Source: Nereocystis luetkeana
Lineage: Eukaryota; Sar; Phaeophyceae; Laminariales; Laminariaceae
DNA length: 64,000 nucleotides
NCBI GenBank assembly: GCA_031213475.1
Contig: JARUPZ010000010.1
Span: 10,525,917 to 10,589,916 of the forward strand
Direction of reading: 5' to 3'
Shown here: in pieces, positions 994 through 44,399 of the stretch
How positions within the stretch are numbered: position 1 is the first letter of the stretch
Layout of the letters: every line of letters begins with the position of its first letter
The notes under the pieces: generated by a model
What the model saw: only the letters and a program-made list of their open reading frames with translations
Told to the model about the DNA's origin: nothing
Databases searched by the model: none
Made by a program: the position numbers and the translations under genes

Positions 994-1057
994 CCGTACT
1001 GAAATACTATTGCAGTACCAGGTATTCACTATTTTGAGACGGAAATCTAGCCGTCTT

Positions 1058-1893
1058 AGACCTATGCCAAAGGAAACGCAAAGTTCCCACGAAAATCTGG
1101 AATTCCAGAGATACCCGTCCAAAAACAAACATGTACAGCTAGCTTGCCATGAGCAGGATTCTTTAAACGGAAAGTTCCAAACTTTTGGAAAATCCCGAAA
1201 AAAACAATTTTGGGGCCGACTTTGGGCCAAGATCGGCTTCAGAAAAACTCGGGCGGATGTTTATTTCGAAGCGGCGAGATTCCGAGTCCTCGACTGACAT
1301 CGATCGACAAAACCAACCAATGGATCATGAATTCTGAACGGAGTGCGCTCGTTAGGGGCTCTGACCCACCCTAGGGTCACCGTGTTAACACCATGTCCGG
1401 TGAAATGTAGCGGGAACTGGCTAGGCATATGATAAAAAGGAAATGGCCGCTGGTGTGTACAAAACAGAAGACGAAAATGCTATATCCGTCTCGAATGGCA
1501 AAACATAGGGGGTTTTCATGTTTGGGAGGATACCGTAAGACGCCGCCGGCAAGCTCTCGCCTCAAAGAGCATGGATCCAACTGATATTTTCGAGTCCGTC
1601 ATCTATACTCGTTGGCCTCGCCCGACACCGAGCGGGTTGGCCGTGGACTGAGTTTATGTCGAGATCGAGCGTCTATCTTCGCACGAGCTGATTTTTATCG
1701 GCGTGTTGACAATTTGCAACGAAAACAAACAAATTGCGCCTCGTGCAGCCGTTCGAAAAAAGAAGGAGAAAAAAAACAAACCTGTTTGCCCTTTTTTCCC
1801 ACTGCGGCGGTACGAGGATTTTCTCAGCTGTTATTTGAAAGCCATTTTTTTATATAAAACGTTGTGACTTCTCGTTTCCATTGGCGTAGGTCT
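1058..1893 (+). mobile_element. Element E, an 836-bp TIR transposon of unknown superfamily
   Basis: The ends are inverted: AGACCTATGCCAAAGGAAAC at the left and, on the opposite strand, AGACCTACGCCAATGGAAAC at the right. Another copy lies in inverted orientation at 25157-25989, where it interrupts repeat R, showing that E moves as a unit with these ends. A reading frame on the minus strand here (motif CFAIRDGYSIFVFCFVHTSG) aligns with a 178-codon frame in the other copy (FAIRDGWRSFVFCFVQTSG), so some coding constraint is possible, but no transposase signature is visible. The target duplication could not be resolved. Confidence 0.75.
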
Positions 1894-2190
1894 AAACGCT
1901 GCTGTGGTGGTTTTTCAACGTCGCTGCTAGATTACGTGATAGTATATCAAAGAGGCATGCACCATCGCTCCAGGTTGCGCGGCGTCCGGTACGCGGTTTT
2001 ATAGTATGTAGTGTTGTGCTGTGGGGGCGATGAGAGGGGACGAGGCCAGGAGCCTCATGGTCGTGTTGCATCGTACGCAATGCTTGTCCACATCTCGCTA
2101 CTGTAGTCGCAGAGCGTGTGTGGTCCATGCAGGAGTATTTTTGTTGTTCCAATTTTCAGTGCAGATCTTTTGAATATATACCAATTGTAA

Positions 2191-2967
2191 GGCCGTTTCC
2201 TATGCGGTTCGATTTCTGAGCTTCAGATTTTGGCCCGATCACATTTTCAGATGTGAAGTTGGCAAATCGAAACAGCCTTCCTATGCGGAAAAATCAGATT
2301 TATTTTGTGTAGAGATTTGAGCAAACGTCGAGACCAACTGGTGTTTTTGAGTTTGGCGCCGCGAAGAGACGCACTGGGCGCGCTGCACTGCGCGTAGGAC
2401 CCAAGCGTCCAAGCCAAGGCTGACCATCTCTGATCTGGTGGCGAAGAGATATGGCGAGTGCGCTAGAGCCACCTGTCTTGGTATTTTGGGTTCCATGTTG
2501 TGACTGACTGCTGCTGCTGCTGTACAGCAGTGTACGTACAAGTACTCGTACGTATCCACGGAGAGGTGCGTGCCGAGTGCGCTTCTCTTGGTCTCTAGGC
2601 CCGAGCCCGCGCCAGGCGACTGACGTCTGGCCACGGAGGGTCGCGCCGCCCGCCGCCCGAGCGCCGGGCGCGAAGCGACGCCGCTATACAGCTGTGTCAC
2701 CTTCCAACTCATCGATCGTTCTGCGGCTGTTTGCTGCCATGGATAACATCTTGAATTTAGAGAGCATGCCATTTTTCGATTTGAAAATCGGATGACCCAG
2801 GTCGTAGGATTTTGGGCCAAAATCCGACAACTTGGGTCATCGGATTCTCAAATCGAAAAATTTCCGGTCAGATTTTGCATATTTCGACTGCATAAACAGG
2901 GTCATTCGTTTTTGAGATCGAAAAATACTAATCTGAAGCTCGAAATCGAACCGCATAGGAAACAGCC
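2191..2967. mobile_element. Element F, a 777-bp TIR element with nested ends
   Basis: The left end GGCCGTTTCCTATGCGG and the inverted right end GGCTGTTTCCTATGCGG continue matching for about 35 bp, through GGTTCGATTTC and GAGCTTCAGATT. An internal AATCGAAACAGCC followed at once by TTCCTATGCGG (about 2266-2290) looks like two element ends abutting, as if a short (~90 bp) relative were joined to or inserted at the left end. The centre carries an 89-bp near-perfect hairpin. No transposase is seen. Confidence 0.7.
2772..2860. repeat. 89-bp near-perfect inverted repeat (hairpin) inside element F
   Basis: Two arms of about 44 bp, 2772-2815 and 2817-2860, are reverse complements with only a few mismatches. 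The left arm runs from TTTTTCGATTTG to GGATTTTGG. The duplicate at about 48143-48231 keeps the structure. If transcribed it would fold into a long stem. Confidence 0.85.
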
Positions 2968-3235
2968 TAGGGCAAAACAACAATGGCCGTGACCGCCGTC
3001 GCGAGCTACGTCGATAATCGCGGACTTTTTTTTTTGTTTTTGGAAAAATGCAACATTTTCGACCAAAATCCCCCCTAAAATCCCGCAAATACCCCGAAAT
3101 ACCCCGAAGTGAGCACTAATGACACCCTCACACACAGCTGATCACATATCAAGCCGTATAATACTGCTGCGCAGCGCAATGGCAACCGGCAGCTAATTGT
3201 ACGTATGTGCGTTGAACATACGATACGATACTTGC

Positions 3236-6200
3236 ATACAAGGTTCCGCTTCGGGATGTGGGTAACTTGAAGTCCCGGGGGCGTCGCAAGGCGGAAAGGG
3301 AGTCACAGGTATTACCCGTAGAGCTGCTATTGGCGGGATCGGGAGCAATCGGTTAGCGTATTGGTCGAAGGAAAGAGTGATAGTAGTCGGCAGGAACTGA
3401 GTACTACTCTTTCTGTGGTGGATACCGCACTACTACAGTACATGTACGCGGTACCATGGGTTGACTACTATACCGTCACTCCCTATACACCACTACCCCT
3501 ACTATATGTGGTACAGGTAGGGGCAGCATGCACTCTGCAAAATACTACCTGGTACACTACTTCTACTGCTACGACTACTACCTATACTACAAAGTACTGC
3601 TGCGGACCAAACGCCCATACAATGTACAGACAACCTCGTGGTGAGCAGAGAGGTCAAATGACCACGCGGTACTATGGGTTGGGGCATGGCTGCTATAATG
3701 TTACTATACTTCACCACCAGTAATACGTACAGTAGATGCAGTGCAGGTAGAAACAGCATGAGTGAATACTACACTACAATACCTGCTGCTACTACTGCTC
3801 CTGTCATACTAAAACTTACATACAACGGCGACGTAGCACGAAAGTCGTACCATGAGTAGGGGGCATGACCACTATACTGTTACTCTTGATGTACATCACT
3901 ACTACTACTTCGCATACTTCTTCTTAGATGTTCTGTAGTAAAGGTAGAAGCAGCATGCACGCTACAAATTACCTGGTACTAGACCACTACGACTACTATT
4001 AATAACGATTTTGTAAATGTACAGGCTACGTATTAGATACGGTTGAGGGCATCTACTGCTATTGGCCAGGTAGAAGCATGCAGAGCTAGACGGACCGAGG
4101 GAGCCAGTTTTGTGGTCACGTATGTACGTGTTCGGTGTGAGGTGTGTGGTGTACGTCAAAGGGCTAGGTGAAACATGTGTGACGCTCGACAGACGTGTAT
4201 CGTTGCTGGTGCTGTATCTGCTGCTGCTGAGGTTGATCAAATACGGGCGATTTCAAAATGATTGAAATTTTCAACGCAGAGAAAATTCAGCAGAGAAAAT
4301 TATCGTGCTCGTGCGGGATTGATTATTGTTGACTGCTCGCCACGACTCGCGAGCTCACGGGTGGGTTTCCAAGCCTATTGCACCGAAAAAACAAATACAC
4401 GAGACCACGATCACTCGATTGCTCGACCTGGAGAACACTGCACACACATACTATATGAATACTGCTGTTGTACAGCTGCTGCTATTGTAGTGAACTCCGT
4501 GGCTGCGCATTGCGTTTGAAATACGTACGGAGGACGTGTGAGTTCGGACGAATCGTCGTCCTGCCCCTACGCAGCTTCCAACTAATTGCACCTTTATCGA
4601 GATTATATATGTGGTCGTTCCTACTTCCTTGGTTGACAGGAATCACGGCCCACACACGCACACACACAAAATGCGCTAGCCGTGGCCGTTACAAAAGAGA
4701 GTGCTTGATGAACGACTGCTGCTGTGCCGTGGCTGCCTCTGTAGAGAGCTCGAGGGACGGTGGGATCAGACATGATACAGCAGCAGACAGCAACAGACAA
4801 AAATATTTGAAATGATGGGGTCTCCATTGTCCTGCTTGGCTCTAGCAGGTCGGAATTATTCCCAGTAGTTATTTGCCAGAACTCGCGACTTCGGAGGCCC
4901 AGAGCACGCGCCACGGACCTCGCCCGGGGCTCGCATTTGCACCGTGGTGTGCACGCGGGCTCCCTGTGTGCCACGCAGCCTAGAGTGCGAGAGAAGACCC
5001 GCGGCCGAACGAGAAAAGTAAAGCATTCCGGAAAAAAAGTCAATTTGATACTAAGTAATATACCAATTACTTCATAATTTTTTACCTGCGTGTCAAAAAC
5101 AGCGTCAACAGTACAGAAAGGCCAACCGAAAACAGCACTACGTAATATTAATAGTAGTAGGAAGCAGCTCCTCTGTATTTGTTGACGTACAGGTATACAT
5201 ACAGTTGGGGCACGATGAAAAAGTTATCTGCATCTATTTGTCATGAAAAAAATCTAATGAATGTCAAATAAGTACTCACGGCAACAGCACAGCCGACTCG
5301 TGGCAATACCCAGTAAAAATCTACTCGTACAGTAGCCTCTTCACGTCAATAGGTAGCAACATGTTTACACACGATTGAGGGCATCATGAAAAAAATATCT
5401 GCACCTGTCTTGAAATGTTTCTCTCTACGTTTAAATGACTGACTCCCAAAAGCAGTATAATATGCTCATGGTTAGAGCAATAGAATCGTGGCAACGGCAG
5501 CACAGTACTACCTACTACCAATGCTACTACTACTATTGCTACTATGCTAGATGCACACCGAAACTGGGTGGGTAGAGGCAGACGGGCGGCAGAATGAGCC
5601 TGGCTCTGTCGCTCTTGCCCGGTTCAATTACCTGCTGCTGAGAGCGTGCGGCTGATACCTGCGTATAAAATAGACAACTGCTACCAATTTCCCCCAGCTA
5701 ACCAGTTTGTGGTGGCGTACGTGCTCGGTGTGAGGTGTGTAATGTACGTCAAAGGGGCTAGGATATATGACGCTCAACAGACGTTTACTGCTGCTGCTGT
5801 ATATACTGCTGCTGCCGCTGAGGTTGATAAAAAACCAAACTGGACAAGCGGGAAATTTCACAGTTTGTTGATATTTTCAACCCAGAGAAAAAGCAGCGGA
5901 GAAAATTCTTCGATGCTGAAAGTGCACGCAGCACACAGCTCGTCATATCATACGGCAATTTTAGTACAAATAGAATATCCAGCCAGGCAGTCGGGCGGTG
6001 TGGGCCATGCCCGGTCCCATACACCAAGGCAGTACAGCGAGACGGCAAGAAGTATGGTCCTGGCTCTGTGGTTCTTGCCCGTTGCGATTACCTGCTGCTG
6101 AGGGTATGCGACTGGCTGTAGGTATAACACCAATACCGGGTACCAAAGTCTCCCAGATAGGCGGACCGTTGTGGTCACGAACGTGCTCGGTGTTAGGCGT

Positions 6201-6580
6201 CAAAGGGCTTGGTGCAGCAGATACGACAGCAGACTGACAGATGCGTACTGCAGTTGCTGCTGTATGTCTGCTGTGCTGCTACTTCAGCTGAGGTTGAGAA
6301 CATATGTACAGCAGAGGGAAGGTTGAGGTTGGCGGGCTATTGACGAAAACAAAACAAAATGTAGGAGTTTCCGTGTCACCTACTCGGCTCGGCGAGGCGG
6401 AAAGCAATCCCTTGTTTTTTAGAGCCATCTCAGCGACGTTCAATACCCCGAGCACCGCCACGGTGCTCGGCTGGGATCCAGACATGCGTGGTAATGTACC
6501 CACGGCCCCCTTGCTTGCCCCGCAGCCGAAAGTGCGAGAAATAACCATCGGCCGCCGGAGAGCAGCACGCCTAAAAAACA
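3236..6580 (+). repeat. Compound dispersed repeat R, copy 1
   Basis: A diverged direct copy occurs at 24146-27870 and a near-identical one at 48605-51519. Shared blocks in order are a GC-rich start (TCCCGGGGGCGTCGCAAGGC), TAC/CTA-rich tracts with ACCATGGGTTG, a tract with AAAGGGCTAGGTGAAACAT and CTGCTGCTGAGGTTGA, and a 3' block with CCTACTCGGCTCGGCGAGG. The ~460-bp module containing CTGGCTCTGTGG and CTTGCCCG is repeated in tandem inside it (about 5595-6055 and 6056-6300). The 3' block (6370-6575) holds a GAGCACCG/CGGTGCTC palindrome. No LTR, TIR or poly(A) end was found, so the class is unknown. Confidence 0.7.
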
Positions 6581-7592
6581 ATGTATCTTATACATATACA
6601 GATACTATTACATGTGGCTGATATATCAGTCATGGTGTATGCCAGGGGCGAACCTCACTCAAGCATCACGTACTATTTTAGTATGTAGTGTGTCCTATTT
6701 ACGTACTATTTTTAGTATGTAGATTCCTCTGGGTCCACATCATGTGGCGGCAAAATCAAATTACGAAGATCTCACGAAATATCGATAATATCCCCCCCCC
6801 AAAAGCCCGCGCCTCAGGGATAGATGAAAGGAATCGTTTGCCGCACTCTTTTTCAAAATCATATGACTGGTTATCCCGAATAAAACGATTAAAGTCGACT
6901 TTCCAGATCCAATATTTTTTTTAATAGTTTAATCAAATTTGACGTTTTCAAAAAACTAAAACACCGCGTTAAGAAAATGTTAAGAATTGTCCAAATCCGT
7001 TGAGATTTTAGAGATCACGAACGTGCATCGATCCCAAAAAACGCAACAAGTTTTTTTTTCCGGTTTATCTAGGATAAAAGGCTCAGAGAAGAAAAACGAA
7101 TACAAAATCTCCGTGGAGACCTACGCCTAGAGACGGGGCGTTTGCCGGTGTCTTTGGATTTCGGAACAGCTGCCTCCACCCCGAGTAAATTGCTCCAGTT
7201 CTCATACTCAGACCATCTCCCTGACGGGAGTTTGAGGGACCACTTCGGTCAAAATAATACGTACTTGAGTCCTTTGGGGAAAATGTTCGTTGTCTGTTTA
7301 GAGCAGCAATACTATTTATGGTACATTAACGCCGTACTCAGACCATCTCTCAACCAAGGTACAGGGTTTTCGTTTATGGCCTTTATAAACAGGACGTGTT
7401 GGGGTCCTTCGATTTGCAGGGGGGGGCAGACGTTGGTATGTTTGCATCACCAAACGCATTTACTCAGCAGCAAGAGTTATGATCATTCCGGAGCTCCTGT
7501 TTGGTGTTTTCATCTTGCCGTGGCCGTGTACGGGTAGGACGCTACGGGCGGTCGAACTAGAGGCCCAGGTAGATTATCTCACCACAGTAGCG
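6581..7592. other. Gene-free tract, A+T-rich
   Basis: I see no gene. The part 6680-7080 is A+T-rich with homopolymer runs that differ in length between the duplicate blocks. A short direct repeat, CTCAGACCATCTC, occurs at about 7208 and 7337. Confidence 0.6.
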
Positions 7593-7703
7593 CTATTACG
7601 GGGGACCATAGTTAATAGGACCTATGTTATACATAAAAACCTATATATTTCACCATTTTTACTAACAATATTTGGTCCTATTAACTATGGTCCCCCGTAA
7701 TAG
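7593..7703 (+). mobile_element. MITE family M1, 111 bp (TA-target, Tc1/mariner-like)
   Basis: Perfect inverted ends CTATTACGGGGGACCATAG, continuing to TTAATAGGACC, enclose an A+T-rich core. Taking CGGGGG as the first base of the TIR, the element is 99 bp flanked by TA on both sides, fitting Tc1/mariner-type insertion. Copies of the same length are at 24299-24409 (inverted), 26626-26736 and 52532-52642. There is no coding capacity. Confidence 0.9.
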
Positions 7704-8877
7704 TCGTTTTCGTCGATCTCCTAATTAAAACAATATCAGCAGCCTGGGAAACTTCCATTTTTCAGGCTCGTTCATGTATATGGATAGCAGAGGTATGGGG
7801 AGTCGGTTTTTGGTAAGAGACCCTCTATGTACATGATGCAAAAGGCGTTGGATTAGTCCGGCGCCTGACACACTACAAAAATATGTACATGACCTAAGCT
7901 CTCTAAAGCTGCCAAGAGGGGATTAGTATGAGCATTAGAATTGGAAAAAAAAATGTTTTCGGTAGGGAGTCATGAAAGGTCCAAAATTTGCCAGAAATAG
8001 TTTTGCAACTGGAAAAAAAACGGCTTGTTTTTTTTCAAAAGCCTGCTGTGCTTTAAATTTGTTTGCCCGAAGGCGCCCCAGAGCGGTGGGTGATGGGGCA
8101 ATCTTCTTGTGTGTCCGGCGCCAGACTTATCCGACGACTTTTCCATCACGAAAAATGCCTCGGACTAAAACACAACTCCCGATACCTCTGCTACCCATAG
8201 ACGAGTTTGAAGAAATGAAGTTTCTCAGGCTGTAGCTGATGTATACTGTTTTAATGATTTGACTCAGGTTTTCGCCGACAACGCCGAGCTTTACTAGTAG
8301 TAGGCGAACCTGCTTGGGCCTTTAGTTCCACCGTCCGTCCGCAGCATCCTACTCCGCCACAGCAGAAAGTAGGTTTGGGGTGCTACCCGTTCGTCTACTG
8401 CCCGAAATACCCGACGGGTTTACCCGGACGGGCACTACCCGTCACCTAGTCCGAGTCCGACCCAAACCCCGCCGGGTACTTTGGGCCGGGTAACCGGGTA
8501 CCCAGTTAGCAACGCGTCCCCGGGCTGAGTATCCCTGACAATCGCCCCAGAAACCCTCGAAACACGCAAGCGATCTAGCAGGACTACACTCTCACAAGCA
8601 CTCGTACTAGCTTTGGAGTTACAGTGCGTGCGTCAAGATGATGAGCTCGAAGGAATCGGCCAGTAGCAGCAGGAGGGAAGCAGCTACAGCAGTACCTCTG
8701 CGGAGATTTTGTTTCGTTTACTCTGTATCCACGTGTACTACAGCAGTACTTAATACTGGTATAATACGTACCTGATATACGCGTACAGTTGTTTTATTGC
8801 TCGGTTTATAAGGAGAGGACTGGCATGTCATCGTATTAAACACGAGAGGCGCAACATACACACGAAAGCAATCCAGA
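7704..8877. other. Gene-free tract with an ACCCG/CGGGT cluster
   Basis: I see no gene. Positions 8380-8505 are packed with ACCCG and CGGGT in both orientations (CCCGACGGGTTTACCCGG, GGGTAACCGGGTACCC). Comparable clusters recur at 10296-10325 and 16209-16231. Such subterminal arrays occur in some TIR transposons, but no ends were found here. Confidence 0.5.
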
Positions 8878-9208
8878 TTTTTTTTTTGTTTTTTTCCATC
8901 GTCTTTGTCATCTTCCCCGTTCTGGCTCCTGCTCCCTCCTAGTCGTAACTCAGATTCGGGTCACTAAGTAAGTAGGCTCTCCCCCCCTTTCCCCACTACG
9001 GTATTGTACGTGCTTTTCATTTTTGAGAGTTCAGCACCTTCTTCTCTCGTCGACTCCCGTCGAACTGTGCCTATGTACCCACGCTGAAATAGGCGCTCTC
9101 GATAAGTTGGTGTCATTAGATAATATATAACGACACACGGAGACTCGAACCGTCGATCTCAACCTTAGGAGTATTCGAGGTCAATCATTAGACCGCCGGG
9201 GCGACCGG
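8878..9208 (-). mobile_element. Candidate tRNA-derived SINE
   Basis: On the minus strand, 9208-9130 reads like a degenerate tRNA: a D-arm-like GCCCCGGCGGTCTAATGA and a B box GGTTCGAGTCT (consensus GGTTCGANTCC). The ends do not form an acceptor stem, so this is not a working tRNA. A body follows (9070-8930), then an A-rich tail of about 20 bp (8899-8879 as T's on the plus strand). The body recurs without the head at 39340-39470. Head, body and A-tail in that order fit a SINE. Target duplications were not found. Confidence 0.45.
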
Positions 9209-10325: not shown

Positions 10326-11749
10326 CCGTATTTGACCTTGTTCAGTTCTTAACGTGGCATTGAACAGAGAGTAATTGGTAACGCTGCGGGGGCAACCTTT
10401 GACGGGAAACGTGCGACAATGATCTACATGTATATTCCATAAACAGACCACGAGGTACTACGTACTGTACCCCATATTGACTTTTTTTCTGTTGTGTTTT
10501 TTTTTCCCGAGAAGAATTTTTCTACTCCAGAGTTGTTGGAGCCTGTGCTGTGACCGCGGACTGAATTTTTGGCGACCAGTTGATATGATAACAATCAACA
10601 CCAGCATATCAACTGTACATACCTGGTATGTGTTATCGTGTGTTCAAAGCAGACGGATCAGGCATGATCGATGCTTAGAATAAGGTAGAGAGCGAATTCG
10701 ATGCGCTACGCGCGTCGCGTGCAATGCTCTGTCGCTTGGCCAAGTCTCTCAATCCGACCGTGATTCGAGTAAAAGCAACAGTCCTCCTGTTGGTTGGCAC
10801 GTTTTCATTCGATTGTATTGAGCCGCTGAGTATATGCACGATTGACTACCATGACCACCGATGTTTGTCATGGCGGTGGCGGTGCTGTGTGTTCGTTTAG
10901 GGTGGGTACCTGTATCTCTCGATCGCCACTGGGGTCCTGAGCAACCGCTGATTTTTCCTGGTGATTTAGCCTCATTTTTCTGTGACAGGACCACTTTACG
11001 GTCCTCTCCACTCCATTAGTGTGTATATTACTATCACTATTCGTAATGACCTACCACCCTGCCGCCATTTGTGTAACCTGATTTTCAGACGTACTCAAAC
11101 TCAGATTTAGGGTACTTTCTGACCCACTACGGAAGTGCTCTCTTAAAGACTACGATGCAAGATGACGTCGCATGCAGTACCGCGAGAACATGGGAAGAGC
11201 TCTTACTTGCACTATTTAATATCGTCCACGCTGCTGTTGGTGACTGCTGCATGACCGGCATGGGCACGGACGACGCGGTGGACCACTACAGTAGTAGTTT
11301 AGTAGCGACCTCAACCGATAGAGCTGAATACAAGGATGGAGATGTAGGAAAGCACAGCGGTGACCGCAATCCGGCAAATGGATCGTATGCTTTAGTTTAT
11401 CGCCAGGAGCCGGGCGCAATAAGACGAACCGAGGGCACCGTGGCAACATGTAGGCAGCGCAGGCGTTTGACCTATGGGACACTCTTGGGAGATATATCAT
11501 GGCCCGTACGTACTTAGTCATGTATATACAATAGCGAGACATACTGACAGCCTTGTTGTGATCAATCAACATGCGGCCTACCTTTACGGGTATTCGACGC
11601 CCTCCGCTATTGCCCCGCTGCGCCCCCTGCGCCCGCTGCACACACCGTCGGTCGTACCGCGCCGCAAAGGGGGAGCTCGACACGGAAGGGGAAGGCAATA
11701 CTTCTGCCAAGACGGTGGTGGCCCGAGTGAAAGGTGTGTTTTTCTTAAG

Positions 11750-11781: not shown

Positions 11782-13645
11782 GATCGTCGTGTCGTGTTGA
11801 CCCACGCAAGAGAAAAAACGCTTTACAAACTCTTACAAGTAAGGTTTTAGTGACGCAACGCAGTAGACGGTATCATACCAGGTGCCTGGTACCAGATGTA
11901 CTGTTTGTACGAGAGCAATGAGTCAGCGCCTACGATTGAGTACAATACGAAACAGATGAGGGTGTAAAACGTGACCCAGCCGCCTGGCCAGTAGTACTAT
12001 GAAAAGGCATGATAACACCTAGCCGCCGACGTCAGTCAACTACCGGTAGCTGACGGCTTTTCAACCAATCGCTCCCTGCAAAAATCACCACCAGATCTCT
12101 CGGGTTATATGACAAACACATGTGCAATTTCCGACACCAGAAAAATAGTACCGGAATATATTGTTGGATCGCCCAGTGTTCTTATTGTCTTGAGCGATCC
12201 TTCGCCGTAGCAACAGCAGCAGCAATAATATGTACCAGGTGTAGATGCAAAGGCCCTGCTGCTGACGCCCCATCGTTAAAACAAAGAGATTCCAAGACCG
12301 TTGAACAATGGAAGGGTCGGGTGAATACATCATTTACTCGTCGTCTAGAAAATACGCGGCTCTCAATATTTGAGGACCGACGACGACAGGGTTGTAAAAC
12401 AATCGAGAGCAGCTCCGTGTTGGTGCGAAACCGCGAGAGGCAGGTATTCAAGGGGTGCAGCTGTTCGTAACAAAGGTAACCATAGCGCGTCGCGGCGAAG
12501 AGGTCCCTTGTATTTCAGCGTCCCTTATCAGAGCTTTCCCCGCTTGAAAGGGTCCGGTCGTTCAAGGGACTACAACAGGGGTCCGGGACAACGGCATGCA
12601 GAGTAGGGAACGGGGAGACGGCGCACGGTGGTAAACCCCTAGTCCAAAGTCAACATGTGGCACTTGGGAGTATCTAACTAGCCTTCTAGCAATCTTTGTG
12701 GTGTTGTTCGAGCGGAATAAAGCGTGTTGGCCCATTGGGGTTCCTCTGGGAGTGTGGCGTTCTAGGAAACATGATGCGCAGATGTGAGAGGTCCCGTCCA
12801 TGCCTTTTTCCGTCATCGACGGGTCCCTTTCAAGGGGTTAACCAGCTGTATACCTGGTGCATACTCGCACCGTGTATATTATTGCGGCGTACAGTACGTT
12901 AATACGATGGTCCCGCTCCGCTGTATACGTAGCACGTATTGCGTTGGCTCCTACCGAGCACAGAGGAGGCAGAGCGACAAACCCTTGAAGGTCCCGAAGG
13001 GAGCAATGGTAGTTTGCACGGCACGGAGGGAGCTCATATCACGAAACATAACATACCATGGTATACGTGTCAGCGGTTGTTGGGAGAGCGCGTTCGGACG
13101 TGGGGCAATATCATATCTGGTACGTATCAACCTGGACCAACGGACTAGCGTTTTGCCCTGGACCAACGGGTCAACGTATGAGTTGAGAGTACACGCTGGG
13201 AGGGTGCAAATGTTGGTTCCGATATATATTTTTTCTCGATCCGGTGTCCGAAGTGTCACACCCGAGTTTATCTCAACCGGCGAAGTGCTGCAAAGCTCTG
13301 GTGGCTTTCCGCACCGCGAGCAGTACAAATAGTAGCAGGAGAATGATACTAGGTAACTGGCACGATTTCTACAGTACTATAGCTCCAGAAACTAAAACAG
13401 GTACACTGTGGGGAGCGGTGCTCAAGGGTATTTCATCTCTGGCATTGCGTGACAGCAGCAAATTTGGATACCCGCCACCTGATACATACTATTAATGGTA
13501 GAGATTGGTACCGGATAAAAAACGGTCAACAGAGGTTTTTGGAATCCAGTGCGGCGCATCCCCCACCCCGCACACCCAACACTCACACACGGCAAACACG
13601 CACGACACGGTGTATCTCGCATGCCCCACACGCCACCACTCCAAC

Positions 13646-13816: not shown

Positions 13817-16800
13817 AGTATATGCTTACGCGTCAAATATTGCACTGACCGCCGCAAAATCCCCACGTATTTTGTCCGCTTTCACTGATTGCCCGATATT
13901 TCTTTACCACTTATTTTCACCATTCCAAGGGATTTTTTTCCCCCTCATTGCAGGTGCATTATTTACTGTAGTACCGCGGCTTGGTCCCTGTAAAATTGAC
14001 TGCTGTTGTACGAGTACACCGTACACGAGGCTCTCGCTATGTAACAAATCGCGCTGGTGGGTATTTGTAACTACCGTCAATCGTGTGCGTGCGATGCTGC
14101 GAGCTTCGATATATCTTCTCTTCGATATCTCGGTCTCGCCGTCGCAAACGCTTCCTCTCGACTACCTCCCTAGGCGGGTCGCCTTTAGCCTCTTCCACCC
14201 CGTCCACCTTGCCTCGTCTGGATACGAATATAGTACAGCAGCGAGCGCAGCAGTAGTTTTGATACAGCAGTACAATACGGCAACCAACAAAAAATCGGCT
14301 TAAGAACGCCAGATACCATGTACCTTTCTTTTCGCGGGTTGATTACTTACCAGACTAGTAGCTGCAGTAGGTGCAGTTGTTGTATTACGGCAGTAATACT
14401 GCTGTACAATGGTACGAGGTACGTACCAGTCTGCTCAGAAGCGAGCCTGGAAGAGATTGTATGCGTATATAGATATCATACATAAATACATAGACTACTA
14501 AAAGTACGTCGTACTGCTGTATACTGCTTGTATGTATCCAAGAACTGGGTTTCTCTACAGTATAATGAGCATTCATAGGCTTGGATCAGTACTCAAACGA
14601 TAATCGACGACACGAAGTAGGGTCGGGACAAGAAAACCCCGACAGAAGCACCCACTACCAGTATCCAAACTCCAAAAACATCACTCACGATGCTGACAAT
14701 CAATGTGTTTCACGCTGTTCGTTGAAAATCTCAATCTAAAACGAGTAAAATCTCTCAATTCCCAAACATAATTCCCGAAAACAAATAAAAAGAGTTCAAA
14801 AACTTCAAGTTGCTGCTCTAGGGGTTAATACGCCGTTATAGGTGCCGCTCACTACAAACCTCACCAAAAACAATCCTTTATAAAACATCAACATGTCTTT
14901 CTATAGGCAGTGGTAGAAGTAGAACCAGGTACCAATTACTAAGGTGCGTAGAAGAAGAACAAGCGAGAGGTGTATTCCGTCCGCTTTCTTATGAATCAAT
15001 CTGGGGCCCCATCAAGGCTCCCATTCGAAAATATAGAAAATACACAACCCGCCGCATCTCCGCAGAGCTCATACAGTTACACATTACATAGTCGACGTTG
15101 ACGTAAGTATCCATACAATCCTACATACTGCTCCGACTATTAGTGCTACTGCTACTACCACTACGACTACTACTAAGAACACTAACAGTTCTGCCTTGAC
15201 GAGGCAGAGATACGCGCACCGAGTGCAGTAGTACGTAACGAATGACACAAACTACGAAACTACACCAGGACACAGGCAGGCTGGTTGAAGGAAAATGCCC
15301 CAAATGGTGTCCGCCACGAATGCCGCATGCAATAGCTACTTGGATGCTACACATTTAGAAATATCATACTGACCGCCATGAACAGCGAAAGAGTGTACCA
15401 TAGGCAGATTTGGTTTTAAGGACCTAGGGCTGGCGCTAGCCGGCGAATGTGTGTCCCTACCGACCACAGGCCTTAAAAAAGGCTGTCAGGAGTTTTGGCA
15501 GGAAGAAGCACTTACTTTTCATAAACGAGTCGGTTTCAGGTCCTCCAAGGCATGTCTGCAAACATAGTTCGCGCATATATACGAAGAATATTGGCTGGGT
15601 GGGGCCAATCGCAAGACATGTTCAATACCCAAAGTTGATCCTACAATGAAATATCGTATTTTGTACACTCGTACCAAACAGAATTGACCAAAGTTCACGC
15701 CACTTGTTGGAGCTGTGTGATTTTGTTCACACGTGTTCTATTAGCCCTTGCCAAATCGCCAACGAAAGGGGATTAGTGTGTTTACCAGGTATGTATTTTC
15801 GCCGTAAAATTGGGATCCCCCAAGACCCAAATAGAATAATCACTAGCGCCAAATTACCTCACAAAAAATATACCTGGACTGTTTTTTTTACTATAGAGGC
15901 ATCTGTTAACGGCTTGGCAGGGGCGCGTTATAGAATATGTGCAAAAAAACAGAATCTATCTCAAAACACGGCGTCGACTTGCGACGCTAAAAAAAACGAA
16001 TGCGGCTTGAATCAGCCTGTAGATAGTGGTGGAGAGGTGGCAAATGATGGAGATGCACATATCGTATATATAGGTTTAATTTGAAAAAAAAAACAGCTGT
16101 ATGATCGAGGATATCCTCGAACGATAAATTTATGTACCTGGTACATAACAAGCGCGAAAATCGAAGGTTATGTTCTGTAGGGTATGTACAAAACCATAAG
16201 GGGGTATTTTCCCGGGTACTTCCCGTACCCAGAAGTTCTGGTTCGTAGCCTCAGGCAACGGTAGCCCAGACTGCACGGCAGTCTATGGATGTAGTTTCAG
16301 GTCATGTATTATTGGCCTCCCACAGAGTAGGGGCAGAGAAAAAGTGAGCCTTGTGCGTCACCACTTACAACCTCAGATGTCAAGAGTCACATAATCCACA
16401 ATAGGCACAGGTACCCACCGGTACGTAACTGTCGTTTGAAGAGACCAAACGAACACCCTCCCTGGCTCTTTACATAACAGTGACGAACGAAAATATACAG
16501 AACGTAAGCCCTTGGCCTACATCAACCACGGAGTGATGACAAGAGGAAACCCATCCCGACGACGACAAGCTAAAACCTCCCCCTCAATCCCACACAAACT
16601 ACTGCAATCGCGGGAAAGATTGCAGTAGTCGCACCAAAAAAATAGAAACTAAGCCGAAAAATATCATGCCAGAGATCGCGAGTTTCCCCCGACAAAAACA
16701 TTATTTTTGTCCCTTCCTACCACCGCCATATATACACGTATTGTAACCGTAAATGCGAGATAGCATACATCCCTTTTCACACAGAAGGTATCAGGAACTA

Positions 16801-19061
16801 AAATTACCCGAAATATAGTCGCTTGTGATACATAATAAACCCGAAAATACTCCTATTTTCTGTAGTATTTTGTCTCGATGTCCTGGATCATTTGATACAA
16901 GTATTGAATTTTTGGATTAGGCCTCCTGCGCGGCAGGAGTCCTCGTCCGGCATGTCGCCCCACGATGAGTGGACGAGCGCACCGCCTGCTCTGCGCGGGG
17001 CTAGTACCTGCAAATGGACCCTAGTTACGACGTCGTTGTGTTAACTACTGGGAGAGTGCTGTTACAGCCAGTATCGTTCATAATCTTCTTTTCTATTCGG
17101 GCTTGAGGTAGTTGAAGGGGTTCCGTGTTGCACAGCAGGGACGCAGCTGTTTGGATCTACATTGGATGTTTTTGTTATGTTTCCGGAGTGGTTGCACTAT
17201 TTCTTGTAGAGTCGCATCATGAGGATTTAAGATGAACGAGTGCGGATCTGGTACGGCATAGACACTAGTATGAGAATGTCGCAAGCAGGGGCAGGGGGGC
17301 TGTAAGATGTTCTGGGTGCTTGCGCCAAGCTCGACTAGATGTAACTGTATGAGTTCTACGGATATGCGGCGGGTAAGTGTATTTCCCGCTTTGTGGGGTC
17401 CCAAATTGATTCGCATGAGAACAGAAGGGATGCATCCTATCTCTCTTGTTTTTCTTCTGCTGACCTTGAGAGAGCAAATCCCGTAACGTATGAAACAGGG
17501 CACATGTTTTCCTCTTGTATATTGTTGTTGGTTTTCGGAAAATTCACTTGATAACTCCGCTGAGACGTATGAGATGGCTTGATATGTCTTGAGGAAAGCA
17601 AAGATCCGTCCCTACAGCCTGTTTGCTGCCAGGTACCAGGTATGCATGTGGTAAGCACACACATATGCTGCACCCGTATGCTGCTTTACCGAGGCAGCTG
17701 CCAGCCAAGCCAGCACCGTCACACGCTCATGACTATACCAGACACGGTAGGGAGACGACAGGAAGGGGTATGTTACTCTCGTACCTTCTACGTGCCAGTA
17801 TATGAGACTGTAGCGCGAGTTCGAGCACGAGTACGATACACTTTTTCAACAACGTCTTTCATCTCGCAGTACTGCTGTACACCGCACTAAAAGTAAGATG
17901 TGTGAGAATCAAAGATGACATCGCACGTATGAATACGAGTACAAAGCATATCTTACCTCGTATTCGTATGATATTGCCTGTACCTGCTTGTTGCTGGGTA
18001 GCCCTAAACAATGTCGAAAATAGTCCAGATTGGAGCCGTGGCGTGAGGCACCGAGGCTGAAGGACTAGCGGTGCGCTCGTGCTTTCGTCAGGAATGGCAC
18101 CGCTCACTCGGTGGCTAGCTTCATTCTGCTGAGAGTAGGGTGGTTGATGGCCGTTCATGGCCTCCGATGGAGTCTAATCTAAGCGGAGTTCCGTATTAGG
18201 CATCCTGTGGGCACGCGAATAGTACACCTTGCCACAGAGCAGCGTCAGCGACCAAGCAGGACCGATCTTGGGCTACCGCTCACGATTATTATCGCGGGCT
18301 TAGCCCCGGGAACCGACTCTATCCCAACGAGGCACCTTTAGGCTGTGAGTCCTGGGCGGGGAGAGTAGGCTCCATACGCTGGATGGCCTCAAGCGAAACG
18401 CCAAATTTTGTGACGAGAATTCTTCGACAACTCCAAACAGACCAAAAACGTCGATGGGGCAGAAATCTCGACACACACGTCAAACTCCGCAGATTCCTTG
18501 CGAATGCAGCCTACTGATACGGGTTCGGGACGATTGGCACTGGATTATCAACGCCAGCCCGAGTCCGAGGGCTTGGCTCAGAAATGGTTTGATCGGCTCA
18601 AACAGAGCTGAGGACCGGTGATCTAACTCTGGGTGTGATTTTGCTTCATTCCAAGGATTTAGTTTTTTTTCGCTCCTCACGTTACGGGCGACCGTCGAAC
18701 TTTGTACCAAGATCAACCTGAATTAGTGATTCGGGTGGCTTTATTTCTTTCCGTGGGGACCTGTAGTTCCCGGTCGGCAATCCGAGTATCCTCCATCCTC
18801 GGACAAGCACTGGAAATTTGTGCTATTGTGTGCCAATTAGTGGCGAATAAATTAAGTTGTGGTTATTTATTTCTTTTGGCCTACATTTACGCCGCCAACA
18901 ACCATCAGGTGACATTCAGAAAAGAAGCGCGTACTCCACTTCGGGACTGCTCCCCTGATATTTGATGCGGACCTGGTTCTAATTCTACTCCTGCCTGATG
19001 GCAACCATGGCCTCGAGCTACTCCTCGTCGTGATCCAGCCAACCCTTTTCATGAGCTGATC
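13817..19061. other. Gene-free tract with small hairpins
   Basis: No recognised gene. It holds a perfect 16-bp palindrome TCGAGGATATCCTCGA (about 16106-16121; broken by one base in A'), a 12-bp-arm hairpin at 16598-16629, an inverted ATACGAG/CTCGTAT pair (17928-17969), and GGGTACTTCCCGTACCC near 16213. Several TACC(A/T)GGTA words occur (15783, 16135, 17634). Confidence 0.5.
16598..16629. repeat. 32-bp hairpin with perfect 12-bp arms
   Basis: ACTACTGCAATC and GATTGCAGTAGT are exact reverse complements around an 8-bp loop. The duplicate at 61539-61570 is identical. It is too small to classify; it could be a mini-MITE remnant or a transcript hairpin. Confidence 0.8.
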
Positions 19062-24409: not shown

Positions 24410-24623
24410 TATTTCTGTGGTAATTGTTACATCTCATGCATTCGACACCTTGGGTTGCTACTATATGTAATGTTACTATACAGCACTACCACTACTGCGC
24501 AGATGTAATACAGGCAGAAGGAGCATGCACTCTACAAAATAATACCAGGTATTTGGTATTAAATACCTGGTACACTACTACTACTGATCGCTATCTATAC
24601 TACTATGTACTACCACTCTGAGC

Positions 24624-26518: not shown

Positions 26519-26521
<3 letters not shown>

Positions 26522-35668: not shown

Positions 35669-35860
35669 CATGGCCGTATTCGTATGACCATGGACCCTCG
35701 CATCCCTACAATGCCGGGACGGAGCATGTCGGGTTTTCACCGACCAGGCAGACATTGGTTGCACCAAGCGCGAAGCGCCGTGAGGTGTTTGGCGAGTCGC
35801 ATGAAGGGTGAGCTGCATCCTACTAGGAACCGCTTGCGAGGCGGACTTGCATATGGATGA
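35669..35860 (+). repeat. Dispersed repeat V, arm 2 (about 250 bp past the USP stop codon)
   Basis: It pairs with 28187-28390 in inverted orientation, so the two arms enclose the USP catalytic exons. Its first ~40 bp (GTATGACCATGGACC) is partly duplicated just upstream at about 35580-35615. It may overlap the 3' untranslated region. Confidence 0.85.
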
Positions 35861-36356
35861 CCGCTTCAATGAAAGTGGTCGAGGGGGGGAGGTTTTTCGA
35901 AGTGTTGGGGTTTCGCCGATACCGTACGTATCGGACGAACCTTACCTTATCCCGACTCCAGCTATACATGCGAGTCCGTACTTTTTTTTTCCTCTCTTTC
36001 TCGTGTTTGTGGACGACCGCTGCCATCGCCAACAGAGCCATGTCAAAAAGGAGTACAGCTGCGATAGACGCAATTTCCTATTGATATGCTGTATCCTTGG
36101 GGAAAAGCAATTGGCACTCGTATGATATGAAATTTGTTTAGCTTTCTCCAGGAGGTACTGGATATAGATCGGTGCTCTCCCGACGGATGGCAACAAGACG
36201 TCCGTCATCCTTGAGGGTATGGCCCTGCTCTGCCTGCCCTGTGTTGCACGCCGTCTGTGCGCATACTGTAGTGCCGGAGCATAATGAAAGCGACAGGCCT
36301 GGTAGGCCTACTACTCTACATCATCACATGAGCCGCCTGTGAGCTTTGCTGTTTCT

Positions 36357-36692
36357 GTAAAAAAACCAAAGTCGTCGACCCGCAAGGAAAAAGGACGGTT
36401 TCAAAACGCGTGAAAAAACTGCCACGGTGCCACCATACACCGGGCCTAAACCCCAAAATCGATTTCCTTTGCGCACCCCGCAAATAGCTTCTCAAATTGT
36501 ATGACAAAAATCTTAGGGATTGACGCGAAAAAACAATAGTCGTTGACCCGCTAGAAAAAAGGACTGTTTCAAAACGTGTGAAACAAACTGCCACCATGCC
36601 ACCATACACCGGGCCTAACCCCAAAACCGATTTCCTTAGCGCACTCCGCAAATAGCAGCTCAAATTGTATGACACAAATCTTAGGGATTGCA
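36357..36692. repeat. 168-bp tandem dimer
   Basis: Two adjacent units of about 168 bp share CCACCATACACCGGGCCTAA, CGATTTCCTT and CTCAAATTGTATGACA with about 90% identity. This is satellite-like but only two units long. Confidence 0.88.
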
Positions 36693-36699
36693 AATATAT

Positions 36700-37499
36700 T
36701 TGGCGTTTTGCATTTTATCCTCAGTTACTGTATGGGCGGAGAGCCACTTCAGTCGGAACATATGGCCCGGAGATACCCCCCTCTACTGCAGTAGCGCATG
36801 GCTCGATGACCCCCTAAAATATACCAAGGTACAATAGTAGCTCTACTGACAACAATAGCTCTATCAATAGCGACAATTATTACTGACATCAGGCACACGA
36901 TGCGGTAGGGTAGTTGTACAGTCGTACCTAGCTCCTCCCCCTCTGCGTGACAGCAGGTACACGATGCCGTTGGCTAGGTGTACAATCGTTCCCGCCCCCC
37001 CTCCCACATCCGCAATCGTCCTGACTTGTCCTCCGAACAAGACATATGCTCACCAAGCAGCTCAAACAACCACCAACCGCAAGTTGCGGCGGGAGCCATA
37101 AAATTTGTATCCCTCACCGAAGCAAAGAATGGGCGAAGAGAAAACTACAGTACGACAAAAATAGAACGGCTGTATACACCGTACAGCCGCCCCTCGCCTC
37201 GCCCCACAGTATCACCCCCACCAGCAGCAACACCAACCGCCACCGCATTGTGGTCTACGTGCTTGGTCCGCGGGCTGAAGGCGAAAATTGCGCTGGAGCA
37301 CAGCAGCAGTACGCAACAGCACTAAAGAAACCGGGAGTTGAGAAATTAAGAAGCTGTGGCTCGACTTTTCCCCGAAACATGAAAAATACCCCGGTATATT
37401 TTTGAATTATTTGTATACCGGAATTCGCCCTACTGCCTGTGACCCCAAATTAAAGTGTATTAAGAGTAGTGTCCTACTGAGGTGTGTTGTTGGTACGCA
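36700..37499. other. Gene-free tract
   Basis: No gene recognised. A short direct repeat involving ACACGATGC and AGGTACACGATGCCG lies near 36896 and 36955, and C-rich tracts follow to 37220. Confidence 0.5.
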
Positions 37500-37800
37500 A
37501 AATAAACGCCACGCATATCCTTGTCAGCCCCACCCCTGACCGCCTCTCTCCCACCGCGTTGCCCAGCTACAGTACGAGCAAACACCACCAGTTAGTGGAT
37601 GCCGGGTTCTCCGCACGGCAGCAAGAGGCCGATTTTGTGCCAACCAAAACTCGACTACTAGAGAGAAACATATTCAAGCAACTTCGTACTTCGACTTTGA
37701 GTTGGGCAAGTCGAAAGAAGAATGAACCCTGCTTATTACAGTAGCAAAATAGTGCCTTTTTGTTCGTTTTCACGCGGCTCAATAAACTCTTCTTCATTGA
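37500..37800 (+). repeat. Dispersed repeat H, copy 1
   Basis: It is shared with 39875-40150 in direct orientation: GTTGCCCAGCTACAGTA, then AACACCACCAG, then GAGTTG.GCAAG and a 3' TTTTCACGCGGCT. It has no TIR and no clear coding frame. Copy 2 differs by substitutions and small indels. Confidence 0.7.
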
Positions 37801-39265
37801 CAACCTATTTATCCTACTATTGTTTTGTGTAATGTAGTATGGGGATATTTTTTGCCGTGTGGTAAAAGGGCTAAGACTGCAAAATGATCCCACACACATT
37901 CCTAGAAATCTGTCCTAAATAAAGGTGGGCGAGGTTCATTTCCAAAGGAGTAAAAACTTCAATACTGTGAAGACAAATATAAACCCTAACTCTGATTCCG
38001 AGTATTATACCAGTATTTCCTATTATTATTGGTAAGCCTCTTTCCTATCGGAGTTTTTTTTTTCTGATATTATCGCAAAGTTTGGGTTTTTGGAACATCG
38101 CATCAAGTTACGGAGGCGTTCTGTTACAAATTTGTGAAAGCGCAAATAGCAGGATAGTTAACTTTCACGTACCAGTATAAAAAAAGACAAGGGAAATGTG
38201 GGAGATGAAACATTTGCGCGAAAAACATGTGGAAATCATGGCAAAAAAGCTCTACGATAAAACAGGTCCCAAGCGCGGGCTTAGCCGTCAAGGGTTTCAG
38301 CCAGCAGTGAGCGAGCGGTTTCCGTACAACGCACGCGGGCGATCTTCCTGTACCTTACTAGTATACCTGCACGCTTATATAACTACTGTAATCACGGTGA
38401 TAACTAGTACCAGGTACGTACAGCAGGATGTTTGGTCGAGTCAGCCTCCTCATCAGTGCCTCGAACAAAAGCACCGAGCACAGACCCCGCCGAGCCTGGC
38501 CAACCCAACCAAAGCGTCTACATACTCCGTCTATACTCGCAGCACCCCCCCTCCTGCCACCAACAACTTGCCTGCCACCGCTATCTGCCACCCACACCAA
38601 AACCACCATTGGGTACTGCTGTGTATAGCGCGAACATCTCCGCTTCTCATGCGCTATCTATACGCTGTACGAGGCATACCTCCCTCTCCCCTTCTCCCCC
38701 CGGAGCCAACCAGGGCAGCTGCAAAACCTCCCTACTGCTAGCCGTATCCCGGCGCGGCACAAAAGAGGAGAAGTGGGTGGAGGGGGAAACGAAAGTAAAA
38801 AGGCTGACATATATGCGCGTACGCAATGCAAGGAAGTAAGATGAGGGTACGGCTTCCACTCAGCGGCCAAAGCACATTCGTCCCAGCAGCAGCAGGATAG
38901 AACAAAACGTTCTGAAATAAAGTAATCGCCGACCCACTTTCGACAGAAATAAACTAAATAAAAAGTAACAATAAAAACATTATTTTGCCTTCGACAGCAT
39001 ATTCAGCGCTACCAGTTTCGCCACGCTGGAGTGGTTGATTTTCGCTCCGTAGAAGGTCCCAGACTTTCCCTGTGCCATGTATGTGTTGGAATACCTGTGA
39101 GATGGGAAGGCGTTTCGCATCCCGGGTCAGGCGAAACAATGTCATCGGCCGCGGAAACGTCGCTCCCTTGTTGGAAACAAAATTACGAGGTTACTGACGG
39201 CACTCCCTCACATGATACCGTCATTTCTACCCGTCGACATCCAGCGCACTTAATGTCCTATTCGT
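37801..39265. other. Gene-free tract
   Basis: I see no gene. TACCAGTA is at 38171 and TACCAGGTA at 38408. Open frames at 38196-38741 and 38428-38839 overlap in different frames without a conserved motif. Confidence 0.5.
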
Positions 39266-41030: not shown

Positions 41031-44000
41031 ACCTGATCAAGGGACTTCGTGACCCATGCGGCCCCAACGGCAACCGACGGCCGGTATAGGGGTATGGCAG
41101 ACTCTGCTTCGTACGCCGATCGTGGACAACGGCCGGCTGCCCAAAGACACCTTTGGGCGCGGGCTAACGAGCACGTTGCGGCCTCAAAACTCCGAGAAGA
41201 AGGAAGAGACACATCGCGAAGTAAACTAAAGGTAATCTGATAACCTTATGGACCAGGCGGGTAGACGACCGGTGGGGTTGGAATCTCTTTTTGTATTGTT
41301 CGACTGCAGGTATAGCCCTAGGCATGGATCAGATCAGCATAAATTATACCATTCCGATCGAAACATCTGCATATATATTAGAATAGCTGGGAAACCCGGG
41401 GATGGTGGGGTGGGAGATATGCCCAGTGGCCGTAAGCATGCAATTATCCAAACGTACACTAAACAAGCAAACGTTTCCCCAAACCAAAAGGCGAAGAACT
41501 CGAAAAAATCGGGAAACCTTACGCTCAAAAAAGAACAAACTACAGTAGTAGCGTCAGCGAGAGGCTTGTACCCTTCCCATGCAGTTGATTTTTGTTTGCA
41601 GCCGGAGGTTGTGCCGAGTGTTTTTCTCGATTTTGCCGTCCCCCTACTTGAATCTAAAGGCCCGGAGGGGTTTCCATCCGGTTCATTGACAGATTCCGCG
41701 AGGGTCAAGGACTTATCTTTTCTTATGGGCGCCCCTGTCTTGCAAACCATGTTTCATCGTATTGAAGGTCGAAGGCCTGCCCACATGTACTCGGTGATAT
41801 GGCCTACCTAGCTCAACTCAGTTGTTGTCTTCTGAGAAGTAAGGGCGAGGACACCAGGGAGGGTGTGTGTCTCTAGGCAACATCTTGCGTGGTACTATGC
41901 CATACCCGCCTTTTCTATTTTACCCTTTGTGACACAGATACAGCTATATCAGAAAATACTACCAGGTACAACTTCTAATGGTGACGTAGAGTGTATACAA
42001 TCTAGGGATCGAGCGCGAGGGGGAGTTGTGGTGCATTCGGTGCAAACCTCCGCGTCTCCTTGTCGGTATGTGTACCTGGTATGGTAGATACGTTGTGTGT
42101 CCTTCTGCGGTGGTGGGGCAATACAGCAAGCTGCATGACCGTTGGTAAGCAGCAATTATTTTCGGCGGATTGTTGGGCATCGATACATACTACAGTGCAA
42201 AACTATCGCCGCTAAGTTCACTGATTTACGCGAGGCTCAGTCAGCACAGCTAGCAGTAGTGTGTTAGTGTGTACGACGACGACAACAATCAGCAGGAGGC
42301 AGTAACGTATTGAATTTCCAGGCACGTACGAGGTACTGCATCAGTGGTGTGTGTACGAGTATGCGCTCGCTTCTTTTCTCGCCCCCATTCAGCTTCTCCA
42401 TTCTATGAACTTGCTTCGAAGATCAGAGTGCTACTGCTATTTGTTACTGCTGTTGTACAGCAGCACTGATTGCACTGTAGTATGTACGAGCACTGATTAA
42501 TGGTGCTCCTCACGATGAAATGTCAACCAACACGGCAGCAGCACAGTGTAACCTGGCCTCCAGCGTCCAGCCACGTCTCTATGAATATATTGCGTACCTG
42601 TACCATAACTATAATACGCACAGCAGTAGTAGTATCGTTGGCGTCGGTTTCAAAGCACATTTTGAAACAATCCGACCCCCGGCGCCCCACAGGCAGGATA
42701 ATGCCGCGCAACTATTGCCACTCCCAGAATGCCCCGTCGGGTACGTCGTACCACATGCGCCTTGGTCGCCACATCGATTCTAGACCAACCCGCAAGCAAC
42801 GAATGGGACGGACATTTTGGAGTTGGCTGCCGGCCTGCCGTGCAGCGCTCAAGGAAGGTTGGCCTGGCACAGAGGACCAACAGAGGAGGTAAGAGGTTAT
42901 AGACTCCATGCGAGCTCCAGAAACCCGTTTTCGCGACTAGGCGACAAAGCGGCGGTCCTTGTTTTGCGTTTTCTTGTTTTATAACAACACAACAACAACA
43001 ACAGTCTTGGACTGCAGCCAGTCACGACGACGCGAAACGTTATTCTTACTCTGACCAGGTACGTGGAGTGCTCTCGTTATCGTGTACCACTTCAGGCGCA
43101 GAACAACGCAAGGGCAGTATACTGCTGAGCTGACTCTGCGCCTTGCAATGTGACCCTGTCGTGGGCCATCCCGTCAAACCCAGGGAGCATTGTTCGTGAT
43201 GTTTCCCACTGTAGTACTATCTGGTCACAACCCCTGGGGAGCATCGTTCGTAGTGTTACCTGGTACCGGTAGGTGCTGCTTGCTGCACAGAAGATACACT
43301 CGCACCCTCGTCGGGAATCTATAGACAGGCATACGCTGTGCAGTGGGAAGGTCGTTGGGGTATGCCAAGTCCTTGGGCCCTCGCGCGCATCGTCGTGCCA
43401 GCGCGGTCCGCAAGCGCCCACCCCGGATCCAAGAGATCCAGCCCAGCTGCCAGGGCCGTTGTTTTTGTTCGTTTTTGCGCAACTTCCCCCCGGATAAGGC
43501 AGGTCTTTCGAAGGTGGTTGAAACCCCCCTCTACTGTGAGAAATCTCGCCGCATGTTGTACTACTGTACCTCGAACATACAGCAGTAGAGTAGGCAGCTC
43601 GTTCTGCAAGACCCGAGCCGGACACAACAAGGACTGCGTTGAGAAGGCATCAGAGGGGGCTATAGTGATGCCCGGTCACGTTGCGTTGCCGATGATGTTG
43701 CACTACTGCGCGCATCGGCTTGAGCATGCCTTCTGGACCCGGTCGTCTCGTGAAGCATTTCTTGGAACAGCAGGAGCAGCAGGTCAGGCTAGCGATACAC
43801 CTGGTACACCTGGTACAGCAGTACGCCGTTTATGAGTTGCAGAAATACCTCATGACACACTTACAACTGCCATCACAACCCTCCCCTGCTTGCGACTGGC
43901 GCAGGGCAATGCCGCCCGTGCTGGGACTCAATGTGAATAAACTCGGGCGGGAACTCGAGGCTCATGACGATGAAGAGCTTGAGGTGCGAAGCGTCTGAAT

Positions 44001-44046
44001 CAAAAGCGGCAGCAGTGTGCCATCTTTGCTCGTTGCTCATCAGGCA
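41031..44046. other. Gene-poor tract
   Basis: No recognised gene. TACC(A/T)GGTA words occur at 41960, 42073 and 43257. Open frames 41248-41811 and 43720-43998 lack any motif or splice support. Tandem CACCTGGTA is at about 43798-43817. Confidence 0.45.
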
Positions 44047-44132
44047 CAAGTTGTTGTTGTTGTAGTTGTTGTCGTTGTTGTTGTCGTTGTTGTCGTCGTT
44101 GTTGTCGTTGTTGTCGTTGCTGTTCTTATCGC
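44047..44132. repeat. (GTT/GTC)n microsatellite
   Basis: It has about 28 GTT units with GTC and GTA variants. On the minus strand it gives an Asn/Asp run in an otherwise unsupported open frame. Confidence 0.88.
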
Positions 44133-44399
44133 CACAATACAATGCAGTCCGAGGTCGCAGGATAGGCTCCGATAACTCTGTAGTGGAATAAATACTTGGG
44201 TAAAAATAGAACAAGCAAATAATAGTACACATCCTGTACATATGAGAACTGAAGCATATCTACACCTCAGACGAAAAATAAAAAGCGAGGTCCGCGCACC
44301 CGCTCACAGATCAGATACGTACATGCGGTACGCTGTACCAGGTACAAGGTACGAGTCGCCACAGAAACCGACAAGGCCGCATACTACCCAGAAAAAATA

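Follow-up and report, generated by a model that had tools for sequence, protein, structure and literature searches.

A TA-flanked quasi-palindrome as a candidate transposon excision footprint in a 64-kb window of contig JARUPZ010000010.1

Motif sites in a duplicated window

The window analyzed here (the whole 64-kb stretch of contig JARUPZ010000010.1, in whose coordinates all positions are given) carries many exact copies of the 9-bp word TACC(A/T)GGTA, which we interpret with moderate confidence, from sequence comparison, as what a cut-and-paste transposon targeting TA and ending in CCAGG...CCTGG leaves behind on excision. GC content runs from 46 to 55% in 4-kb steps. Copy A (1-19052) and copy B (45369-64000) share 98-99% identity, and copy C (24151-27871) is an older paralogue of approximately 3253-6581, with 77-95% identity in pieces. 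The A/B alignment contained 116 substitutions and 19 internal insertions or deletions (indels), and a further gap falls where the window ends; six of the 19 indels were longer than 3 bp (430, 14, 7, 6, 6, and 4 bp). Copies A and B lie ∼45 kb apart, and their divergence falls near 7.3 kb, from 1.5% up to 7 kb (98/6,547) to 0.14% over 8-19 kb (16 substitutions in 11,053 aligned bases), which suggests gene conversion or two events.

Of the 21 exact motif sites in the window, 14 lie in positions 1-45368; copy B duplicates six of these and adds one of its own (61757). All 14 coordinates listed in the original prediction were exact matches. For counting we combined these 14 with the new site at 61757, and the resulting 15 sites represent 14 loci, since 24543 and 24564 are the two arms of one palindrome. 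Because each spelling of the motif is the reverse complement of the other, their near-equal counts carry no information. Sites and related features, given without strand, are:

1016..1024, TACCAGGTA, candidate scar, exact match; counterpart 46384
3546..3554, TACCTGGTA, candidate scar; counterpart 48915; the 30-bp palindrome 24543-24572 stands at the corresponding place in paralogue C
3970..3978, TACCTGGTA, exact match within the 430 bp absent from copy B
10620..10628, TACCTGGTA, candidate scar, exact match; counterpart 55560
11876..11891, TACCAGGTGCCTGGTA, candidate double-ended footprint; counterpart 56816
15783..15791, TACCAGGTA, candidate scar, exact match; counterpart 60723
16135..16143, TACCTGGTA, candidate scar, exact match; counterpart 61076
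16816..16817, bare TA in copy A, aligned with TACCAGGTA at 61757 in copy B
17634..17642, TACCAGGTA, candidate scar, exact match; counterpart 62582
24543..24572, 30-bp palindrome with sites 24543 and 24564 inside
38408..38416, TACCAGGTA, candidate scar, exact match
41960..41968, TACCAGGTA, candidate scar, exact match
42073..42081, TACCTGGTA, candidate scar, exact match
43257..43265, TACCTGGTA, candidate scar, exact match
44336..44344, TACCAGGTA, candidate scar, exact match
61757..61765, TACCAGGTA in copy B only; 7-bp indel TACCAGG relative to copy A

The predicted over-representation was borne out. Against the 14 sites seen in 1-45368, the region to which observed and expected counts refer unless stated otherwise, Markov models of orders 1-4 expected 0.35, 0.71, 0.53, and 0.95, and 100 dinucleotide shuffles of the window gave a mean of 0.50 sites and a maximum of 4 (21 seen). 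Orders 5 and 6, whose models are partly trained on the motif, expected 3.6 and 7.5; order 5 with the motif sites masked expected 1.24, and order 4 with triplet tracts masked expected 0.93. The count is thus well above that of Markov models carrying the local bias, a match with which had been named as grounds for rejecting the idea. With triplet tracts masked, the motif topped at order 3 all 9-mers seen at least six times (34,305 classes were present, and only those reaching this count were ranked), with an approximately 26-fold excess (14 vs. 0.53). Spacing was uneven, and no site lies in 24573-38407 (13.8 kb), home of the GC-rich part and of an open reading frame (ORF) with a ubiquitin hydrolase match.

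TA dependence and differences between copies

The CC(A/T)GG core itself was seen 105 times vs. 87 expected (order 1, dinucleotides). Of these cores, 14 had TA on both sides and 67 had it on neither; a single TA stood to the left of eight and to the right of 16. Because the 91 cores remaining after removal of the 14 are near the expected 87, the excess is confined to cores with TA on both sides. The CCAGG core filled 14 of the 216 occurrences of TA-N5-TA, with six for the runner-up. The odds ratio for CC(A/T)GG with TA on both sides was 7.0, although this figure is not decisive by itself, as some rare cores score high with only one or two occurrences. When TA-bounded cores of 1-7 bp were ranked by z with triplet tracts masked, CCAGG came first.

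Forms of the motif without a central A or T were rare. Over the whole window, TACCNGGTA was centered on A or T (W) at 21 sites and on G or C (S) at two, these two being one locus and its duplicate (6134/51077); the S-centered form was seen once in 1-45368 vs. 0.31 expected. One-mismatch forms (24 vs. 10.0 expected) and one-base-shorter forms (11 vs. 4.6) were in excess, which fits what decaying or imperfect copies would give, and the one-base-longer forms tested numbered 3 vs. 0.74. A CCGG core between TAs occurred once (0.63 expected). Outside the 9-mer there was no strong base conservation, with a maximum of 0.77 bit among 40 flanking positions (20 on each side, 15 sites), and the empty target implied at 10620 is ACA-TA-TGT. 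The Sleeping Beauty-type footprint TACWGTA, considered as a possible second class of scar, is likewise in excess (24 vs. 9.2; order 3, triplet tracts masked), but the 3-bp core CWG between TAs is a separate word from CCAGG.

In the young part of the A/B alignment (0.14% divergence), the indels consisted of two of 1 bp and one longer, the 7-bp TACCAGG. Here copy A has a bare TA at 16816 and copy B has TACCAGGTA at 61757 (A reads GAAATATAGTC, B reads GAAATATACCAGGTAGTC). Among the 11,062 7-bp deletions possible in the young part of copy B, 15 turn a motif into TA, and these fall at five motif sites, 61757 among them. One of the 16 young-part substitutions lies 8 bp from the TACCAGG indel. A second difference was found at site 3546, at which A and B carry TACCTGGTA and paralogue C reads TACCAGGTATTTGGTATTAAATACCTGGTA, a form equivalent to TACC[21 bp]TGGTA; in the alignment, the 21-bp indel both starts and stops within the motif. 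One reading of this change is the reduction of a 26-bp TA-flanked palindrome to a footprint of 5 bp. Paralogue C also holds TACCAGGGTA (26104) inside 12 bp that are missing from A and B. Together, the A/B and C comparisons suggest insertion.

The longest A/B indel, 430 bp (3563-3992, with motif site 3970), is absent from copy B and was considered as a transposon. This candidate was rejected, as paralogue C has related sequence over part of it and copy B therefore looks deleted. CTACT stands at the start of the segment and just past its end, and the loss in copy B was probably a microhomology deletion.

Both hairpins named in the original prediction are present. The first, 24543-24572, is a 30-bp palindrome, TACCAGGTATTT-GGTATT-AAATACCTGGTA, with a perfect 12-bp inverted repeat and a 6-base loop; within 19053-45368, the part covered for terminal inverted repeats, no other arms of 12 bp were found. 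The second is TACCAGGTGCCTGGTA at 11876-11891, which recurs at 56816. Both palindromes begin with CCAGG and end with CCTGG, with TA adjoining. We regard the first as a candidate TA-flanked mini-element or partial remnant, and the second as a candidate footprint of the form expected if both 5-base ends were retained.

Excision-footprint reading and its alternatives

If the motif is an excision footprint, the transposon would insert at TA and duplicate it, and its ends would be CCAGG...CCTGG. Staggered excision would leave a 5-base single-stranded terminal tail on each flank. The CCAGG tails would then anneal at every position but the central A:A, and repair would yield TA-CC(A/T)GG-TA; imperfect repair could yield the double-ended form at 11876 and the shorter and longer variants. 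In Sleeping Beauty, the two CAG tails likewise pair except at a central A:A, and TAC(A/T)GTA results. The logic proposed here would be that of Sleeping Beauty, lengthened by 1 bp on each side. As in Sleeping Beauty and Frog Prince, there is TA on both sides of a quasi-palindrome with a central A/T (21 W- vs. 2 S-centered sites), explicable by annealing of self-complementary end tails; unlike their 3-bp C(A/T)G core, the core here is the 5-bp CC(A/T)GG, and neither parent nor transposase was seen in the searches described below. The transposon scars of the original prediction remain the best fit to the TA on both sides, the difference between TA and TACCAGGTA, the two palindromes with matching ends, and the flanks without strong conservation, although not every indel belongs to them.

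Published footprints provide the closest comparison. The footprint of Sleeping Beauty and Frog Prince is given as C(A/T)GTA (PMC3878927) and that of Sleeping Beauty as TACWGTA (PMC4378557), with both of which the TAG(T/A)CTA printed in one review (PMC2874221) is at odds. Sleeping Beauty cuts are described as leaving 3-nt 3' overhangs, and footprints from non-homologous end joining as identical to the overhangs (PMC7827188). The plant Tc1/mariner elements Stowaway (a miniature inverted-repeat transposable element, MITE) and Osmar5 resemble the present case in TA duplication, in leaving few terminal bases, and in presence/absence between related sequences, but their footprints are varied and mixed, in contrast to the single exact 5-bp core shared by the 14 loci of this window. 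Putative Stowaway footprints are reported to mix 2-4 bp from one end with 1-2 from the other (PMC1925063); such mixtures can total more bases, which tempers the novelty of a 5-bp core. The main text of an Ectocarpus transposon paper, which reports 17 Mariner-Tc1 families, does not contain the words "footprint" or "excision" (PMC12477816). A whole-word literature search for three spellings of the motif gave no match, and no 5-bp TA footprint appeared in titles or abstracts among the matches listed, although one may be reported elsewhere.

We do not claim Tc1/mariner membership for the putative transposon. The recurring 5-bp core falls outside the 2-4 bp between TAs of that group, and TA duplication is represented by a core excess found only between two TAs and by one TA vs. 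TACCAGGTA pair, with no intact insertion seen. A more specific proposal, which we advance only tentatively, is that a family of TA-specific transposases cleaves 5 nt inward of its ends, beyond the 2-4 bp of published footprints, and recently peppered a eukaryotic genome with approximately one scar per 3 kb, such that a lost transposon activity could be read from scars alone. If the footprint reading is right, the 9-bp word would be a countable record of past excisions, one scar per departed transposon, and would expose excisions invisible to element-based annotation, and the 5-base stagger would widen the reported cleavage range of TA-target transposases. The motif could also guide a search for the parent by way of TA-CCAGG...CCTGG-TA.

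Several observations weigh against an excision footprint. Reported footprints are shorter, at 2-4 bp for Tc1/mariner (PMC7913693) and 0-4 bp for Passer (PMC9976928). Without masking, triplet-type cores outscored CCAGG between two TAs: at order 2 it came fifth, after CTACTAC, CTAC, TTAA, and CAGCAG, whereas at order 3 only CTACTAC ranked higher. Target-site bias was weak (YR flanks 15/30 vs. 30%, p = 0.026; Y at +1 in 24/30, p = 0.058; palindromy 1.53 vs. 1.35 of 5). The 16816/61757 difference may be a gain in copy B or a loss in copy A, and the change between C and A/B may instead have arisen when TACC repeats slipped across a hairpin. A GTACCA indel at 50591 was considered as a second scar gain and rejected, since paralogue C aligns with copy B with the six bases ungapped, suggesting a deletion in copy A. 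With paralogue C as outgroup, the 430-bp and GTACCA indels both look like simple losses.

The search for a parent element adds to these points. No intact parent was seen, and when the interior was limited to 80 bp, ends paired only in the palindromes at 11876 and 24543. Among the 40 best pairs at distances of up to 9 kb there was no other exact CCWGG-ended pair with long arms, and the strongest candidates for an intact parent among TACCWGG-like/CCWGGTA-like pairs, which we rejected, were a different MITE and short palindromes. Similarity past the motif is weak in the pairs 41960-43265 and 41960-42081. A DDE/D transposase domain was absent from the 40 ORFs scanned with Pfam (see below), and the parent need not lie in the window. 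The palindrome had no relatives in viral contigs, from collections without eukaryote genomes.

The alternatives to an excision footprint start from the same sites. The best placed of them, though in our view unlikely, is a palindromic micro-element, a palindrome of 9-32 bp inserted at TA as a unit (trans-mobilized or repair-templated). Besides the 16-bp and 30-bp palindromes at 11876 and 24543, the window does contain further TACC/GGTA-ended palindromes at 21520 (32 bp, TACCCAGGTG...) and 10301 (TACCCGGGTACCCGGGTA), but bare 9-mers make up 13 of the 15 sites (the remaining two form the arms of the 24543 palindrome), and the flanks show no strong conservation. Under known mechanisms, transposase binding sites do not fit into a 5-bp interior.

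Less plausible again is a selected functional motif, for example a putative binding site of a palindrome-reading protein. A quasi-palindromic word of one sequence class, spread over DNA with few recognized genes, is what such a site might look like; against this stand the TA vs. TACCAGGTA difference between copies 0.14% apart, the excess of one-mismatch forms, as neutral decay predicts, and the near-expected number of CC(A/T)GG cores lacking TA on both sides. We seriously doubt that the motif is a product of local base composition or of biased mutation, through DNA rich in GTAC and CAG/CTG or slippage at hairpins. GTAC is common (467 in the window), the order-5 and order-6 models lift the expectation, and TACWGTA is enriched too, but the masked models leave the excess in place and no other W-centered 9-bp palindrome exceeds 6. 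Least probable is a footprint whose 5 bp are joined from both ends (CC + A/T + GG) of a TA-target transposon that cuts with the usual stagger of 2-3 bases. This reading could draw on the mixed Stowaway footprints (PMC1925063) and on TACCATGGTA at 13054 (counterpart 57994), but the longer palindromes have CCAGG itself at their ends and CCA or CCT cores between TAs are at expectation (10 vs. 9.45).

Gene content and other repeats

ORFs in the window are short: between stops, the longest frame reaches 252 aa in 28-45 kb, and before 28.5 kb the maximum is 218 aa. The Pfam scan covered 40 ORFs, made up of 10 of the 63 listed for 28-45 kb and every one of the 30 that end before 28.5 kb and reach 125 aa. 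A 106-aa ORF (35097-35414) matched ubiquitin carboxyl-terminal hydrolase above the Pfam cut-off (E 2.4e-8), the only such match in the scan; phmmer against PDB returned no relative of it at E 0.001. Sub-threshold matches to coiled-coil families (29154-29657), Oleavirus_coat (11219-11872, E 0.0064), and Cyt_bd_oxida_I (18870-19280, E 0.00029) were taken as chance. No Rfam family reached its gathering score in the window. A 189-aa ORF on the minus strand (44904-45470) had no Pfam match and no relative in viral contigs, and may resemble retroelement-derived proteins of brown algae.

The window was taken as eukaryotic nuclear DNA. Organelle DNA with palindromic repeats, as in a genome of the Haematococcus or Volvox type, was considered and set aside, as both the ubiquitin hydrolase match and the presence of MITE-like elements favor a nuclear origin. 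The MITE-like element is ∼110 bp long with arms of ∼31-32 bp (...TTACGGGGGACC...) and occurs at 7593-7704, 24298-24408, 26626-26737, and 52532-52643; its arm had no relatives in viral and prokaryote genome contigs, from collections without eukaryote genomes. The copy at 24298 is missing from paralogues A and B. A second repeat, of ∼730 bp and 84% identity, relates 1171-1893 to 25157-25882 (inverted), with a further copy at 46539-47261, and in paralogue C it sits between A-homologous parts.

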